From NCBI GenBank assembly GCA_021848365.1, contig JAJZUS010000001.1, positions 372,001 to 436,000 on the forward strand: a stretch of 64,000 nt of DNA. The letters are read 5' to 3'. Of the stretch, positions 51,704 to 56,681 are shown piece after piece. Source of the stretch: Actinomycetes bacterium. GTDB taxonomy: Bacteria; Actinomycetota; Acidimicrobiia; Acidimicrobiales; RAAP-2. The notes beneath the pieces were generated by a model. That model ran no database searches. It was not told where the DNA came from and was given only the letters and a program-made list of their open reading frames with translations. Position 1 is the first letter of the stretch. Every line of letters starts with the position of its first letter. The position numbers were made by a program, and so were the translations under genes.

Positions 51704-52366
51704 ATGGGACGCCTGATCCTCGTCCTGTTGGGCAAGCAGGGTGCGGGCAAGGGCACCCAGGCGACCCGTCTCGCCCAGACGCTCTCCATCCCGCACGTCT
51801 CGACCGGCGACATCCTGCGCGCCGCGATCCGCGAGGGCACGCCCCTCGGGCTCGAGGTGAAGGCCGTCCTGGAGTCGGGGGCGCTCGTCTCCGACGACCT
51901 CGTCAACCGACTCGTCGCCGAGCGGCTGACCCAGCCCGACGCGGTCCGCGGAGCGCTCTTCGACGGGTACCCCCGGACCCTCAACCAGGCCGAGGCCCTC
52001 GAAGTGATGCTCGGCGACGACGGCGTGAAGCTCTGCGTCGACCTCGAGGTGCCGGTCGAGTTGGTGACGGCGCGCCTCTCGGCCCGTCGAGTCTGCTCGA
52101 ACTGCGGGGCCATCTACCGCGCGAGTGATCCCGAAGGCGTGAGCGGGCGGTGCTCGACCTGCGGAGGACCGGTGGTCCAGCGGGCCGACGACCAGCCGGC
52201 GGCCATCGCCGAGCGCCTGGCGGCCTACGAGCGCGACACGGCGCCCCTGCTCGACTTCTACCGGGACCGGGGCCTGCTCGTCTCGGTCGACGGCGCGCGC
52301 GCGCCCGACGAGGTCACGGCCTCGATCGCCGCGGCCCTCTCGACCCGGGGGCTCGCCCGCTCGTGA
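51704..52366 (+). CDS. adk: Adenylate kinase
   Basis: A 220-residue long-form Adk. The P-loop is GKQGAGKGTQATRL, then FDGYPRTLNQAE and a LID domain with a four-cysteine zinc site (CSNCG and CSTCG). It converts ATP and AMP to two ADP. It starts one base after secY and overlaps map by 4 bp. Confidence 0.96.
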   Translation: MGRLILVLLGKQGAGKGTQATRLAQTLSIPHVSTGDILRAAIREGTPLGLEVKAVLESGALVSDDLVNRLVAERLTQPDAVRGALFDGYPRTLNQAEALEVMLGDDGVKLCVDLEVPVELVTARLSARRVCSNCGAIYRASDPEGVSGRCSTCGGPVVQRADDQPAAIAERLAAYERDTAPLLDFYRDRGLLVSVDGARAPDEVTASIAAALSTRGLARS

Positions 52367-53103
52367 GGCGCTCGGCCGACGAGATCGCGAAGATGCGCCG
52401 CGCCGGCCGCGTGGTGGCCGAGATCCACGAGGCGACCCGCGCGGCCATCCGGCCCGGGGTGACCACCGCCCGCCTCAACGAGGTCGCCGCCGAGGTCCTC
52501 GAGCGCCGCGGGGCCCGCTCCAACTTCCTCGGGTACCACGGCTTCCCGGCCGTCATCTGCACCAGTCCCAACGACATGATCGTCCACGGGATCCCGGGGG
52601 AGTACGTGCTCGTCGAGGGCGACATCATCTCGGTCGACTGCGGGGCCATCGTCGAGGGGTACCACGGCGACGCCGCCTACACGGCGGGCGTGGGGGAGAT
52701 CTCCGCGGCCGCCCGGCGCCTCATCGAGGTGACCGAGCGCTCCCTGTGGGCCGGGATCGAGCAGTTGCGACCGGGGAACCGGCTCCACGAGGTCGGGCGG
52801 GCCGTCCAGGCCGTCGCCGAGGCCGCGGGCTACGGAGTCGTGCGCGAGTACGTCGGCCACGCGATCGGGACCGCGATGCACGAGAACCCCCAGGTCCCCA
52901 ACTACTGGCCGGGCACCCCGGGCCCGACGCTCAAGTCCGGGATGGTCTTCGCCATCGAGCCGATGGTCAACATCGGCTCCTACGAGACCTACGTGCTGGA
53001 CGACGGCTGGAGCGTGATGACGGCCGACGGGTCCCTCTCGGCCCACTTCGAGCACACCGTCGCCGTCACCGACGACGGTCCCGAGGTGCTCACCGTCCTC
53101 TAG
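52363..53103 (+). CDS. map: Methionine aminopeptidase, type I
   Basis: A 246-residue enzyme that removes the initiator Met. All five metal ligands are visible: the Asp pair in ISVDCGAIVEGYHGDAAYT, His in GHAIGTAMHENP, Glu in FAIEPMVN and Glu in HFEHTVAVT. It is the type Ia short form without an SH3-like extension. GTG start in the adk stop (GTGA). It is the last gene before the inserted DosR-like cassette. Confidence 0.96.
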   Translation: MRRSADEIAKMRRAGRVVAEIHEATRAAIRPGVTTARLNEVAAEVLERRGARSNFLGYHGFPAVICTSPNDMIVHGIPGEYVLVEGDIISVDCGAIVEGYHGDAAYTAGVGEISAAARRLIEVTERSLWAGIEQLRPGNRLHEVGRAVQAVAEAAGYGVVREYVGHAIGTAMHENPQVPNYWPGTPGPTLKSGMVFAIEPMVNIGSYETYVLDDGWSVMTADGSLSAHFEHTVAVTDDGPEVLTVL

Positions 53104-53118
53104 GTGCACTCGGCGCGG

Positions 53119-53763
53119 CTAGCCGTGCGGGTGGGAGCGGTCCTGGTAGCGCTGGGCGAAGAGCGCGGCCTCGGTGCGGCGCTGGAAGCCGAGCTTCGCG
53201 AGGAGGTTCGACACGTAGTTCTTCACCGTCTTCTCGGCGAGGAACATCTCGGCCGCGATCTCGCGGTTGGAGAGGCCCTCCGCCAGGAGCTCGAGGATGC
53301 GTCGCTCCTGGGGGCTGAGGCTCTCGAGGCGCATGTCCTCGGTGATCTGACGGCGCAGCCGCTCGCGGGCCCGCTCGATCTGCTCCGGGCTGAGCAGGAG
53401 CTCGCCGGAGGCGACCCGCCGAACGTCCTCGACCAGGGCGTCTCCGCGCACGTTCTTCAGCACGTAGCCCCGGGCCCCGGCGATCACCGACGCGGCCAGG
53501 GCCTCGGCGTCGGCGAAGGAGGTGAGCATCAGGCAGTTGAGGTCGGCCCGTCGCTCGCGCAGGTCGCGGCAGAGGTCGACGCCACTGCCGTCGGGCAGTC
53601 GTACGTCGAGGACGGCGACGTCGATCGCCCGCACGTCGACGGCGAGGGCCTCCTCGAGGGTGCCGGCCTCGGCCACCACGACGATGTCGTCGTTCGCCTC
53701 GAGCAGTTCGCGCAGCCCCCGTCGCACGATCTCGTGGTCGTCCACGAGCAGCAGTCGGATCAC
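53119..53763 (-). CDS. DosR/DevR-like response regulator (NarL/FixJ family)
   Basis: A 214-residue regulator. The receiver domain has Asp8/Asp9, phospho-acceptor D53 in VLDVRLPDG, then LMLTS and GYVLKN. The C-terminal LuxR-type helix-turn-helix ends MFLAEKTVKNYVSNLLAKLG. The recognition helix AEKTVKNYVS and flanking residues are almost the same as in mycobacterial DosR, the master activator of the hypoxia/NO dormancy response, as is the receiver motif VDDHEIVRRGL. It is coupled to the kinase by GTGA overlap. It lies antisense to map's direction, 15 bp from its stop. Confidence 0.92.
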   Translation of the reverse strand: MIRLLLVDDHEIVRRGLRELLEANDDIVVVAEAGTLEEALAVDVRAIDVAVLDVRLPDGSGVDLCRDLRERRADLNCLMLTSFADAEALAASVIAGARGYVLKNVRGDALVEDVRRVASGELLLSPEQIERARERLRRQITEDMRLESLSPQERRILELLAEGLSNREIAAEMFLAEKTVKNYVSNLLAKLGFQRRTEAALFAQRYQDRSHPHG

Positions 53764-54896
53764 GCGTCCCTCCGGGCCGTCCACTCGACCAGTGTGCCAG
53801 TCCCCGGCGTCGACTCGATCGTGCAGTCCCCACCGAGCTCGCGGGCCCGCCCGCGCAGGTTGCGCAGTCCGCGGCCCGGACCGACCGGGGCGTGGAAGCC
53901 CACGCCGTTGTCGTGGACGCGCAGCACCAGCAGCGGCCCCTCGACCGCCAGGGCCACGTTCGCCTCGCTCGCTCGGGCGTGGCGCGCGATGTTGGAGAGG
54001 ATCTCGCGCAGGGCTCGCAGGGTGTGACGGGCGCAGTGGGCGCTCGCCTCGAGGGCCGACTGGTCCGGCAGGTCGAGGTCGACCTTGATCCCGAGGCGGG
54101 TGGCGACCTCGTCGCTCATGGCGGCCAGGCGAACGAGCAGGGTCTCGCCGTCGACGTCGTCCTGGTCGATCTCGAAGATCGTCGTGCGGATCTCCTGGAT
54201 GGTGCCGTCGAGCTCGTCGAGGGCCCGGTTGATCCGGTCGCGGTCCGCCGGGTCGATCTCCGAGCCGAGCGTGATCTGCAGGGCGAGGCCGACCCCGAAG
54301 AGGCGCTGGATGACGGTGTCGTGGAGGTCGCGGGCCAGGCGCTCGCGCTCCTCGGAGAGGATCAGTTCGCGCAGGTGGGCCCGCAGGTTGGCCTGGTCGA
54401 TGACGAGGCCGGCGGCTCGGCCGAACGAGCTCACCAGGGCCTCGTCCTCCTCGTCGAAGGGCACGCCGTCCTCGCGGTCGGTGAGGTAGAGGTTGCCGAA
54501 GACCCGCCCGTCGCCGGCGAGGATCGGGACGCCGAGGAAGCTGCGCATGACCGGGTGGTGGGTCGGGAAGCCGGCCGACCCGGGGTAGTGGGCGAGGTCG
54601 GCGACGCGTACCGGGGCGGCCCCGACGATCGTCTCGCCGAGGACGCCGTGGCCGTGGGGCGTCGCGCCGATGAGGGAGCTCACGCCCTCGTCGACGCCGT
54701 AGGTGACGAAGCGGCTGAGGCTCGCGCGGTCGCCGCCCACGACCCCGAGGGCGCCGTAGCGGGCGCCCACCAGCTGGCTGGCCGCCGTGACGATGAGGCC
54801 GAGGAGGTCGGTGAGGTCGGCGTCGGTCTCGATCAGCAGCATCGCGTCGATGAGCGCGTGGAGGCGTGCGGGGTCGGTGATCCGACGGAAGGACAC
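53760..54896 (-). CDS. DosS-like GAF-domain sensor histidine kinase
   Basis: A 378-residue soluble kinase. One GAF domain (about 24-165) contains SAGFPTHHPVMRSFLGVP, matching the segment of DosS/DosT GAF-A that carries the haem-ligating His (here H113 or H114). HisKA_3 follows with H192 in ARDLHDTVIQRLFGVGLALQ, then an ATPase domain with VHDNGVGF and GRGLRNLRGRA. DosS senses O2, NO, CO or redox state through haem; the same role is inferred here. DosS has two GAF domains and this protein one. GTG start at 54896, with GAGACT five bases upstream. It forms an operon with the regulator gene. Confidence 0.9.
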   Translation of the reverse strand: MSFRRITDPARLHALIDAMLLIETDADLTDLLGLIVTAASQLVGARYGALGVVGGDRASLSRFVTYGVDEGVSSLIGATPHGHGVLGETIVGAAPVRVADLAHYPGSAGFPTHHPVMRSFLGVPILAGDGRVFGNLYLTDREDGVPFDEEDEALVSSFGRAAGLVIDQANLRAHLRELILSEERERLARDLHDTVIQRLFGVGLALQITLGSEIDPADRDRINRALDELDGTIQEIRTTIFEIDQDDVDGETLLVRLAAMSDEVATRLGIKVDLDLPDQSALEASAHCARHTLRALREILSNIARHARASEANVALAVEGPLLVLRVHDNGVGFHAPVGPGRGLRNLRGRARELGGDCTIESTPGTGTLVEWTARRDA

Positions 54897-54925
54897 GACG
54901 TAGTCTCACACACCCGCCGGGGCGC

Positions 54926-54940
54926 GGTAAAGCCTTTACC
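54926..54940. promoter_or_regulatory. 15-bp palindrome upstream of the kinase gene
   Basis: GGTAAAG and CTTTACC flank a single C. It lies 30-44 bp upstream of the kinase GTG and spans the stop of the flavoprotein gene. With a one-base centre it cannot form a good RNA loop, so an operator is more likely than a terminator. Confidence 0.45.
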
Positions 54941-55331
54941 CGACGCGCTCGCCCGAGAGGATCGTGAGGGGCAGGGCGATGAGGGTGGCGCCCCCGGCGA
55001 CGGCCCGGGTGAGGGACTCCGACAGGGGTGGCTCCCCGCTCGGGAGCTCCGCGATCCCCGAGCCCATGACCGACCAGGTGGCGCCGTCGTCCTCGAGCCC
55101 GTCGATCTGGATCGAGAGCACGTCGCCGCGCCGGGCGGCCACCACGACGGCCTCCTCGGCGCTCGCGAGCAGGACCAGCCCCTCGTCGATCACCGTGATC
55201 CGGGCCGGGAGGGCGGCCGGCAGGCAGCGCACCGAGATCACCACCCGCGCGAGGTCGGCCCGCCGCAGCAGGTCGAGGCACTCCTCGCGGGGAATGACGG
55301 CACGCCTGACGCGCTCGCCCGGTACGCTCAT
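54936..55331 (-). CDS. Pyridoxamine-phosphate-oxidase-like FMN/F420 split-barrel protein
   Basis: A 131-residue split-barrel flavin-binding protein. The helical start (REECLDLLRRADLARVVISV), LPAALPARITVIDEGLVLL and the segment WSVMGSGIAELP resemble small PNPOx-family proteins such as Rv0080, a member of the mycobacterial DosR regulon. A redox or detoxification role under hypoxic/NO stress is inferred. The ATG at 55331 has CATGCT six bases upstream. It lies directly before the DosS-like kinase on the same strand. Confidence 0.78.
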   Translation of the reverse strand: MSVPGERVRRAVIPREECLDLLRRADLARVVISVRCLPAALPARITVIDEGLVLLASAEEAVVVAARRGDVLSIQIDGLEDDGATWSVMGSGIAELPSGEPPLSESLTRAVAGGATLIALPLTILSGERVG

Positions 55332-55389
55332 GGATCCAGCATGAACCCGGCGCCGCCGGAGCAACTAGGGCCGGGGGTCACATTTTGGC

Positions 55390-55409
55390 CCCGGGACCAT
55401 GGTCCGCGA
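55390..55409. promoter_or_regulatory. DosR-box-like palindrome between the flavoprotein gene and infA
   Basis: A perfect 12-bp palindrome GGACCATGGTCC (55394-55405) sits in a 20-bp window matching about 14 of 20 positions of the DosR consensus TTSGGGACTWWAGTCCCSAA by hand alignment. It is 8 bp upstream of the infA -35 hexamer and about 60 bp upstream of the flavoprotein start, so it could serve both directions. Confidence 0.5.
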
Positions 55410-55417
55410 AGCCGCTT

Positions 55418-55445
55418 TTGCGTCGCGCGGAAAATTCGGTAGAAT
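55418..55445 (+). promoter_or_regulatory. Promoter of the infA-rpmJ-rpsM-rpoA operon
   Basis: TTGCGT at 55418-55423 and TAGAAT at 55440-55445 have 16-bp spacing. A leader of about 75 nt follows. Confidence 0.6.
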
Positions 55446-55480
55446 GGCAAGCCGGTCTGCGGGTGCGCCCGCGGCCACCC

Positions 55481-55498
55481 TCGACGGTTCGCCGTCGA
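55481..55498 (+). promoter_or_regulatory. Leader hairpin with TTCG loop before infA
   Basis: TCGACGG and CCGTCGA close a TTCG tetraloop, 28 nt before the infA start codon. It may stabilise or regulate the 5' end. Confidence 0.4.
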
Positions 55499-55526
55499 CC
55501 CGTAGTGCCCGAGAAGGAGAAGGAAC

Positions 55527-55751
55527 CTGAGTAAGCCGAAGGAAGACGCGTTCACCGTCGAGGGAACGGTCGTCGAACCGCTACCCAACGCGATGTTCCG
55601 GGTCGAGCTGGAGAACGGGTATACCGTCCTCGCCCACAGCTCGGGAAAGATGCGCATGCACCGCATTCGCATCCTGCCCGGCGACAAGGTGCAGGTCGAG
55701 ATCACGCCCTACGACATGACCCGTGGCCGCATCACCTATCGGTACAAGTAA
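55527..55751 (+). CDS. infA: Translation initiation factor IF-1, apparently with a CTG start
   Basis: A 74-residue IF-1 with the family core [38 protein letters not shown] and the end RGRITYRYK. An in-frame TAG at 55503-55505 limits the frame, and between it and the conserved region no ATG, GTG or TTG occurs. CTG at 55527 lies 7 nt after AAGGAG (55514-55519) and gives [13 protein letters not shown], matching the usual N-terminal length. An internal ATG (codon 23) would destroy the OB fold. CTG starts are rare, so this is either real low-efficiency initiation or a base error. It is the first gene of the alpha operon. Confidence 0.9.
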
Positions 55752-55780
55752 TCAGGCTCCGTCGCAAGGAAGAAGACGTC

Positions 55781-55894
55781 ATGAAAGTGCGCGCGAGCGT
55801 GAAGACCATGTGTGAGAAGTGCAAGGTGATCCGCCGGGCCGGCCACGTCCGCGTCATCTGCGAGAACCCGCGCCACAAGCAGCGCCAGGGCTAG
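55781..55894 (+). CDS. rpmJ: 50S ribosomal protein L36
   Basis: A 37-residue zinc-ribbon protein. C11, C14, C27 and H32 are all present (the zinc-binding form), with the typical start [15 protein letters not shown]. It lies 29 bp after infA with GCAAGGAAGAAG upstream. Confidence 0.96.
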
Positions 55895-55902
55895 GAGGAC
55901 TG

Positions 55903-56280
55903 ATGGCTCGCATCGCTGGGGTGGACATCCCGCGCGACAAGCGCACGGTGATCTCCCTCACCTACATCTTCGGCATCGGACCGACCACGGCGGCGCAGAT
56001 CTGCGCGGCCACGGGCATCGACGAGTCGATCCGGGTGAAGGACCTCTCGGACACCGACGTCAACAAGTTGCGCTCCTACATCGACCAGAACCTCACGGTC
56101 GAGGGTGACCTGCGCCGCGACGTGGCCCAGGACATCAAGCGCAAGATGGAGATCAACTGCCTGCAGGGCGTGCGCCACCGCAAGGGGCTGCCCGTGCGCG
56201 GCCAGCGCACCCGCACGAACGCCCGCACCCGCAAGGGCCCGAAGCGCACCGTCGCCGGGAAGAAGAAGGTGACCAAGTAA
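55903..56280 (+). CDS. rpsM: 30S ribosomal protein S13
   Basis: A 125-residue S13. It starts [14 protein letters not shown] and has [14 protein letters not shown] and the C-terminal [24 protein letters not shown] that contacts tRNA. ATG at 55903 after AGGAGG. Its stop overlaps rpsK by one base. Confidence 0.97.
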
Positions 56281-56681
56281 TGGCCAAGTCGACCCCCTCC
56301 GCCGCCCGCAAGGGGCGCCGCAAGGAGCGCAAGAACATCGCCTTCGGTGTCGCGCACATCAAGAGCTCGTTCAACAACACGATCGTGTCCATCACCGACC
56401 CCGAGGGGAACGTCATCTCCTGGGCCTCGTCGGGCAACGTCGGCTTCAAGGGCTCGCGCAAGTCGACGCCCTTCGCCGCCCAGCTCGCGGCCGAGAAGTG
56501 CGCCCGCGCGGCGATGGAGCACGGAGTGAAGAAGGTCGACGTGCTGGTGCGCGGACCGGGATCGGGCCGCGAGACGGCCATCCGATCCCTCGCCGCTGCC
56601 GGGATCGAGGTCGTGGCGATCAAGGACGTCACGCCCCTGCCCCACAACGGTTGCCGCCCCAAGAAGCGTCGTCGCGGCTAA
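56280..56681 (+). CDS. rpsK: 30S ribosomal protein S11
   Basis: A 133-residue S11 on the 30S platform. It has [35 protein letters not shown] and the ending [12 protein letters not shown]. It overlaps rpsM by one base. Confidence 0.97.

Follow-up and report, generated by a model that had tools for sequence, protein, structure and literature searches.

A DosRS/Fsq-like gene cassette between map and infA of an actinobacterium is probably a hypoxia module in an unusual place

Why does a set of genes resembling a dormancy-type gas sensor lie between map and infA? This question is raised by a stretch of 64,000 nucleotides from an Actinomycetes bacterium (hereafter the window; positions 372001-436000 of contig C1 of the source genome G000, which comprises 1.96 Mb in three contigs). 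Here, three minus-strand genes encoding a flavoprotein, a sensor histidine kinase with a GAF domain and a NarL-type response regulator occupy the gap between the end of map (53103) and infA (55527-55751, plus strand). The first-pass annotation of the window had read this cassette as a dormancy-type sensor that directly couples respiration state to ribosome production. Our analysis supports the first part of this proposal, as regulator clade, ligand residues and an Fsq-like partner protein all point to a dormancy-type sensor at the level of sequence. The cassette is most probably an autoregulated operon of an Fsq-like flavoprotein, a haem-GAF kinase and a DevR-type regulator that works like mycobacterial DosRS, a reading supported by gene content, conservation, clade, ligand residues, and a regulator box with its spacing. 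What is new here is a DevR-type box that occupies the activator position in the promoter of the cassette itself.

The open reading frames of all three genes are found where the first-pass annotation had placed them. The operon begins with the flavoprotein gene (54936..55331, minus strand, 131 aa, ATG start; Pfam Pyridox_ox_2), coding for an Fsq-like flavin split-barrel protein of the MSMEG_5243/Rv0080 family. It is followed by the gene of the sensor histidine kinase (53760..54896, minus strand, 378 aa, GTG start; GAF, HisKA_3 and HATPase_c), which carries a single GAF domain with DosT-like pocket residues, and by that of the DevR/DosR-clade regulator (53119..53763, minus strand, 214 aa, GTG start; Response_reg and GerE), which joins a receiver to a LuxR/GerE helix-turn-helix domain. 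The reading frames of kinase and regulator overlap by 4 bp, and the GC content is unremarkable. A search against NCBIfam returned no family above its cut-off, and the three matches of an Rfam search of positions 53000-56500 were every one far below the gathering score. The 17 named relatives, with kinases 59-96% identical to that of the window, are metagenome-assembled genomes labelled Acidimicrobiaceae, Actinomycetes or uncultured actinobacterium.

The top match of the regulator among solved structures was DevR (3c3w; E 1.7e-59), followed by VraR (1.9e-33). In a quick maximum-likelihood tree of 69 of the 92 sequences (23 named near-duplicates removed; outgroup branches long), DevR and the cassette regulators formed one clade separate from the other NarL/LuxR regulators, with a Shimodaira-Hasegawa-like approximate likelihood ratio test (SH-aLRT) support of 99, in line with the kinship to DosR proposed earlier. 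Three paralogues of the window's genome fell among the NarL/LuxR regulators outside this clade, and 26 cassette regulators together with an orphan regulator of G019, described below, were united with a support of 100. Within the clade, DevR sits closest not to the cassette regulators but to two regulators that partner double-GAF kinases. The recognition helix had been described as nearly that of DosR; the match to DevR holds, but "nearly" is too weak, as AEKTVKNYVS is identical to the helix of 3c3w at 10 of 10 positions. In the DevR helix, K179, K182 and N183 are the residues that we take to contact bases. Since AEKTVKNYVS is widespread within the DevR-like clade, the helix alone does not point to DosR specifically.

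For the kinase, the GAF domain matched DosT GAF-A (2vzw) with an E value of 2e-39 and DosS with values from 6e-32 to 6e-31, and the 17 top Foldseek matches of its AF2 model were all GAF-A domains of DosS or DosT. The FPxHHP segment, noted at first pass as the one that holds the haem ligand in mycobacterial DosS/DosT, is present, and its second histidine aligns with the ligand position of DosS/DosT. The pocket residues are His114, Tyr137 and Gly51, and the kinase histidine is His192. At residue level the haem pocket is kept throughout: the proximal His (149 in DosS, 147 in DosT), the distal Tyr (171 and 169) and a Gly at the position of DosS E87/DosT G85 are found in all 112 distinct aligned rows (43 cassette kinases and 69 others). 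His149/His147 is the iron ligand and Tyr171 discriminates between ligands, according to the excerpted text of a review (PMC4082495). In the same text, Gly85 of DosT is proposed to give an open channel and stable O2 binding, a proposal that the review finds obscured by conflicting data.

The first-pass annotation had also stressed one GAF domain instead of two. The single domain is confirmed by Pfam, and because the kinase lacks the second of the two N-terminal GAF domains of DosS and DosT, we term it single-GAF DosT-like and do not class it as DosS/DosT. This architecture is not unusual, however, since 28 of the 29 phylum loci L140-L168 likewise match as a single stretch, loci that were picked as best-scoring, a choice that favours single-GAF proteins. 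Single-GAF kinases are thus common, and the single GAF is not novel. Of 11 loci chosen as candidates for double-GAF kinases (L239-L249), ten match in two stretches, and a kinase match at E ≤ 1e-40 occurs in 53 of 246 phylum genomes. Altogether, the kinase probably binds haem, and our best guess from its residues is a DosT-like sensor of O2, NO and CO.

The claimed resemblance of the flavoprotein to Rv0080 is right at the family level, since its only sequence match in the PDB is Fsq (MSMEG_5243), the characterised homologue of Rv0080. A profile built from 17 flavoprotein orthologues found one solved chain at E ≤ 1, namely MSMEG_5243 (6eci, E 1.5e-6), which was also the top fold match of the confident structural model (pLDDT 89.6). 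Fsq is described in the excerpted text of PMC13284343 as a member of the dormancy regulon and the sole characterised homologue of Rv0080, which sequesters flavin and shields FAD from autoxidation in hypoxia. An excerpt of PMC6292918 names MSMEG_5243 among the DosR-regulon proteins raised by NO or H2O2. By analogy, the flavoprotein of the cassette presumably binds FAD.

Alignment of the region between the flavoprotein gene and infA revealed a conserved element, TGTGACNNNNGNCCCTA when read towards the flavoprotein. In the window this DevR-type box reads TGTGACCCCCGGCCCTA (55366..55382, minus strand), with its centre 43 nt upstream of the flavoprotein ATG and 31 nt from a putative −10 hexamer of the cassette promoter, CATGCT (55338..55343, minus strand). 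Among the 49 promoter rows that remained once identical promoters were removed, the box is free of mismatches in 29 and has at most one in 42. The flavoprotein ATG lies at +43 from the box centre in 34 of the 47 rows with up to three mismatches, and a CATGCT-like −10 is found about 31 nt from the centre in most rows. As to the rows themselves, L109 is a fragment of the window that lacks the promoter, and three further loci (L055, L058, L091) do not belong to the cassette. The fixed spacing and the −10 together place the box at about −43 relative to a transcript that is probably leaderless. This is the layout described for DevR promoters, in which a proximal site overlaps the −35 (PMC3029386, in the part available). 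The element also resembles the OsdR palindrome AGGGCCGATCGGCCCT, which its authors call in good conformity with the M. tuberculosis consensus (excerpt of PMC5069765). By sequence, a DevR-type site with a deviating left half-site thus lies at the cassette's own promoter; we infer that the regulator binds it and that the cassette is autoregulated. Another palindrome, GGGACCATGGTCC (approximately 55393-55405), occurs only in the window's own rows and the 96%-identical L003, and was dropped for the box at 55366-55382. A generic promoter and terminator scan of 52900-55760 gave no match; its consensus differs from the promoters described here, which it therefore missed.

The box offers a way into a candidate regulon. 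The exact TGTGACNNNNGNCCCTA pattern occurs 57 times in 61 genus genomes (at least once in 37 of them) versus nine times for the reversed pattern, so that about nine chance matches are to be expected. By our own count, 24 of the 57 occurrences belong to cassette promoters, the very source of the pattern, and 33 lie elsewhere. Behind these non-cassette boxes we found Hsp20 genes (by Pfam in L184, L185 and L203; L201 looks the same), as well as genes for a luciferase-like (LLM) oxidoreductase, GAPDH, ferritin, cytochrome b, pyruvate:ferredoxin oxidoreductase (POR), a GPR1-family protein, a GNAT acetyltransferase and a glutamate-type dehydrogenase (GDH). In the window's own genome, the matches with at most one mismatch are the cassette, two sites in the region ahead of an operon that includes genes for a CsoR-type repressor and a P-type ATPase (L106:5685-5778), and a site 45 bp before an ODP-GGDEF gene (L107:3994-4010). 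In G005 (L060:2797-5349), cydA and cydB immediately follow the cassette regulator in the same orientation, and the gap between regulator and cydAB holds a near-match to the box, TAGGGAAATAAGTCCCTA, spotted by eye without a control. The box-downstream genes and cydAB of G005 point to low oxygen.

The mechanism we favour would start from the haem. When O2 leaves it, or NO or CO displaces it, the kinase would phosphorylate the regulator, which would then act at TGTGACNNNNGNCCCTA boxes in the −35 region and switch on its own operon together with a few dispersed low-oxygen genes. By sequestering FAD, the flavoprotein would keep flavin autoxidation in check, and infA would be transcribed from its own promoter. 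Haem binding, gas response, phosphotransfer, box binding, autoregulation and FAD sequestration are predictions. Several observations weigh against this mechanism. Confidence in the kinase model is moderate (pLDDT 68); the left half of the box, GTGAC, deviates from the symmetric DevR/OsdR consensus; and in L013, a relative that has the cassette, the flavoprotein gene is not preceded by a box. In the divergent gaps between histidine kinase and response regulator (HK/RR) genes of 13 non-cassette loci, 12 showed no better box than shuffles and L083 was borderline (0.02), so autoregulation via such a box is not general in the family. Several of the 33 non-cassette matches lack a clear start nearby, and some of the genes downstream of boxes (GAPDH, GDH, MFS) are atypical for hypoxia. 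In relatives, the 33 non-cassette matches against nine in the control suggest sites that Hsp20 and further hypoxia genes have in common, and the window's own genome yields four against two.

Such target genes could also fit a DevRS-like pair that has been retuned, with a GAF domain that is empty or holds a ligand other than haem and a regulon for stress in general. The range of ligands bound by GAF domains is wide, and Hsp20 and central metabolism genes do stand behind the boxes. The invariant His, Tyr and Gly of the DosT pocket, the haem GAF-A domains as closest folds, the Fsq-like neighbour and the cydAB neighbour in G005 all speak against such a pair, and we consider it unlikely.

If the cassette is a DosRS-like module, is its place between map and infA more than an accident of one genome? 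We counted the synteny by hand in 37 genomes of the same genus. The cassette has both map and infA beside it in 18 of them, two of which (G018 and G031) have other genes, about 2 kb in all, on one side; the order map-cassette-infA thus recurs in relatives, a check that the first-pass annotation had asked for. One flank is present in seven further genomes, the other being cut by the contig end in four (G013, G020, G024, G026) and missing within the fetched stretch in three (G005, G006, G009), and neither flank was seen in two (G022, G035). No cassette lies beside infA in nine genomes (G001, G004, G007, G008, G012, G014, G028, G032, G033), six of which have a divergent HK/RR pair elsewhere. In G019, only a diverged regulator (46% identical) is left at the site; kinase and flavoprotein are gone. 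This genome is small, and its map-infA site (L209:561-1260) combines the diverged regulator with a symmetric box, GGGACTTTGGTCCC, that precedes it. Among the 17 named loci, some from the same genomes as in the tally, both flanks are present in 13. In some cassette loci one flank was not found beside the cassette: infA in L011, L017 and L071, and map in L060. We propose that the map-infA position is an old insertion retained in much of the genus. The nearest pairs outside the genus are mostly divergent HK/RR pairs at other places. G047, from another family, has the flavoprotein, a box with one mismatch at the same +43 spacing, an HK/RR pair and an AAA_33 gene in one stretch, so the association of flavoprotein, box and pair may predate the move to map-infA. 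Two loci show additional genes: L072:3432-5509 has HxlR and MFS genes (by Pfam) on the infA side of the cassette, and L073:3004-5020 a pair of similar look on the map side, which suggests that the map-infA gap tolerates insertions.

Does this position itself have a function? The upstream flank map (52363..53103, plus strand) is convergent with the cassette, the stops of map and regulator lying tail to tail 15 bp apart. One possible consequence could be passive coupling, in which the cassette runs into secY-adk-map, strong growth-phase transcription of spc yields antisense RNA over the kinase and regulator genes and so keeps the switch low, and induction of the cassette hinders read-through. 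The 15-bp gap, the lack of any intrinsic terminator found between map and cassette by the generic scan of 52900-55760, and a distance of 5-66 nt between the aligned ends in 28 of 44 junctions (with some genomes entering twice) would be consistent with it, but 16 junctions have 0.5-2 kb between regulator and map, with further genes in those looked at, and we regard such interference as distinctly unlikely. It is very unlikely, in our view, that the position is functional as a terminator-less toggle of dormancy operon and spc between growth and dormancy, which would need no infA site. There, strong spc transcription would keep the sensor low through antisense RNA or collision, and the sensor, once induced, would damp spc read-through; if true, the convergent layout would form a hard-wired switch between the two states.

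On the other side of the cassette, infA has a promoter separate from that of the cassette, TTTTGC ... TAGAAT (55416..55445, plus strand). In rows from cassette and other genomes, its −35-like part is found in 46 of 47 and its −10-like part in 40 of 47, the latter 75-101 nt before the CTG start of infA. Of the 10 genus genomes without a full cassette, six (G007, G008, G012, G014, G019, G028) have both parts, and G001, G004, G032 and G033 have the −35-like part only. Most cassette loci have the box 129-295 bp from infA, and in three the distance is 951, 2328 and 3541 bp; the spacing of the box is fixed on the cassette side only. Given the separate promoter, the variable distance and this one-sided spacing, the cassette is probably not a regulator of infA. 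The direct coupling suggested at first pass, in which the regulator would act from the common intergenic region on infA and the ribosomal operons, could appeal to the box and the infA promoter sharing a divergent region (the two starts are 196 bp apart in the window) and to a location kept across much of the genus, but infA promoter elements and leader that also occur in genomes without the cassette, a box-infA distance that varies from 0.13 kb and reaches 0.95-3.5 kb, and a fixed spacing on the cassette side alone make it highly improbable, and it is not supported.

The infA gene drew attention for its start codon as well. In the window, CTG is the only in-frame candidate after a stop eight codons upstream. 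The same CTG is found in 52 of 52 rows of the flavoprotein-infA alignment (some genomes twice) and in all 10 genus genomes without a full cassette. At the order level, where 57 of 59 genomes have an infA match and 36 loci were examined, nearly all from different families, it occurs in 32; of the other four, one has TTG, one GTG, and two have a CTG that lies a few codons upstream. Several of these 36 loci have other in-frame start codons further upstream, and in none of six loci looked at outside the order or class is CTG the plain choice. A Shine-Dalgarno-like sequence precedes the CTG in most loci. The AUU start of infC is known as a self-tuning start codon, and by analogy IF1 possibly tunes its own synthesis via the CTG. 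A literature search for a CUG/CTG start of infA yielded nothing relevant, one search being of little worth as it matched words like "infant". Between promoter and Shine-Dalgarno sequence, the infA leader (approximately 55446-55526, plus strand) shows two hairpins in relatives, also in genomes without the cassette. In a subset of 14 leaders of similar length, for which we named the structure ourselves and which does not include the window's leader, seven of 19 pairs changed on both sides, a value that 0 of 500 shuffles reached. RNAalifold on a MAFFT alignment of 32 leaders gave three invariant pairs only and no covariation, so the structure rests on 14 of 38 leaders.

Altogether, the sequence features argue for a DosRS/Fsq-like hypoxia module of the DosRS/OsdKR kind in an unusual place; the more striking proposal, a link to ribosome production, is not borne out by the evidence at hand. 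A literature search found no paper joining "DosR regulon" with "Acidimicrobi". Our data suggest that the DosRS/Fsq core of mycobacterial dormancy extends, as a small single-GAF version with a recognisable box and Hsp20-type targets, to uncultured Acidimicrobiaceae-like bacteria. The cassette could thereby serve as a compact non-mycobacterial relative for studying DosT-type sensing, and its box as a means to read the regulon from genomes.

How does the cassette compare with known systems? Its flavoprotein is likened by sequence and by the split-barrel fold to Fsq, Rv0080 and Rv3129, proteins of the DosR regulon, with Fsq as the sole sequence match and a low identity of 22-26% in fold alignments. 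PolSR of Microlunatus (PMC6754071, in the part available) is a DevRS-like pair of another actinobacterium studied for oxygen shifts, but has two GAF domains and phosphate/polyphosphate targets. OsdKR of Streptomyces coelicolor, called orthologous to DosT/DevS/DevR outside mycobacteria, is closer in having the related 16-nt palindrome and a pyridoxamine-phosphate-oxidase gene, SCO0214, among its predicted targets; its targets include developmental genes, however, and a three-gene map-infA unit is not part of the description in the excerpted text (PMC5069765). With DosRS/DevRS-DosT of Mycobacterium, the cassette shares a DevR-clade regulator with an identical recognition helix, the haem-GAF pocket residues, a box at the −35 region, and Fsq-type and Hsp20 targets. 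It differs in having one GAF domain instead of two, the asymmetric box TGTGACNNNNGNCCCTA, and a three-gene operon led by the flavoprotein and placed between map and infA.

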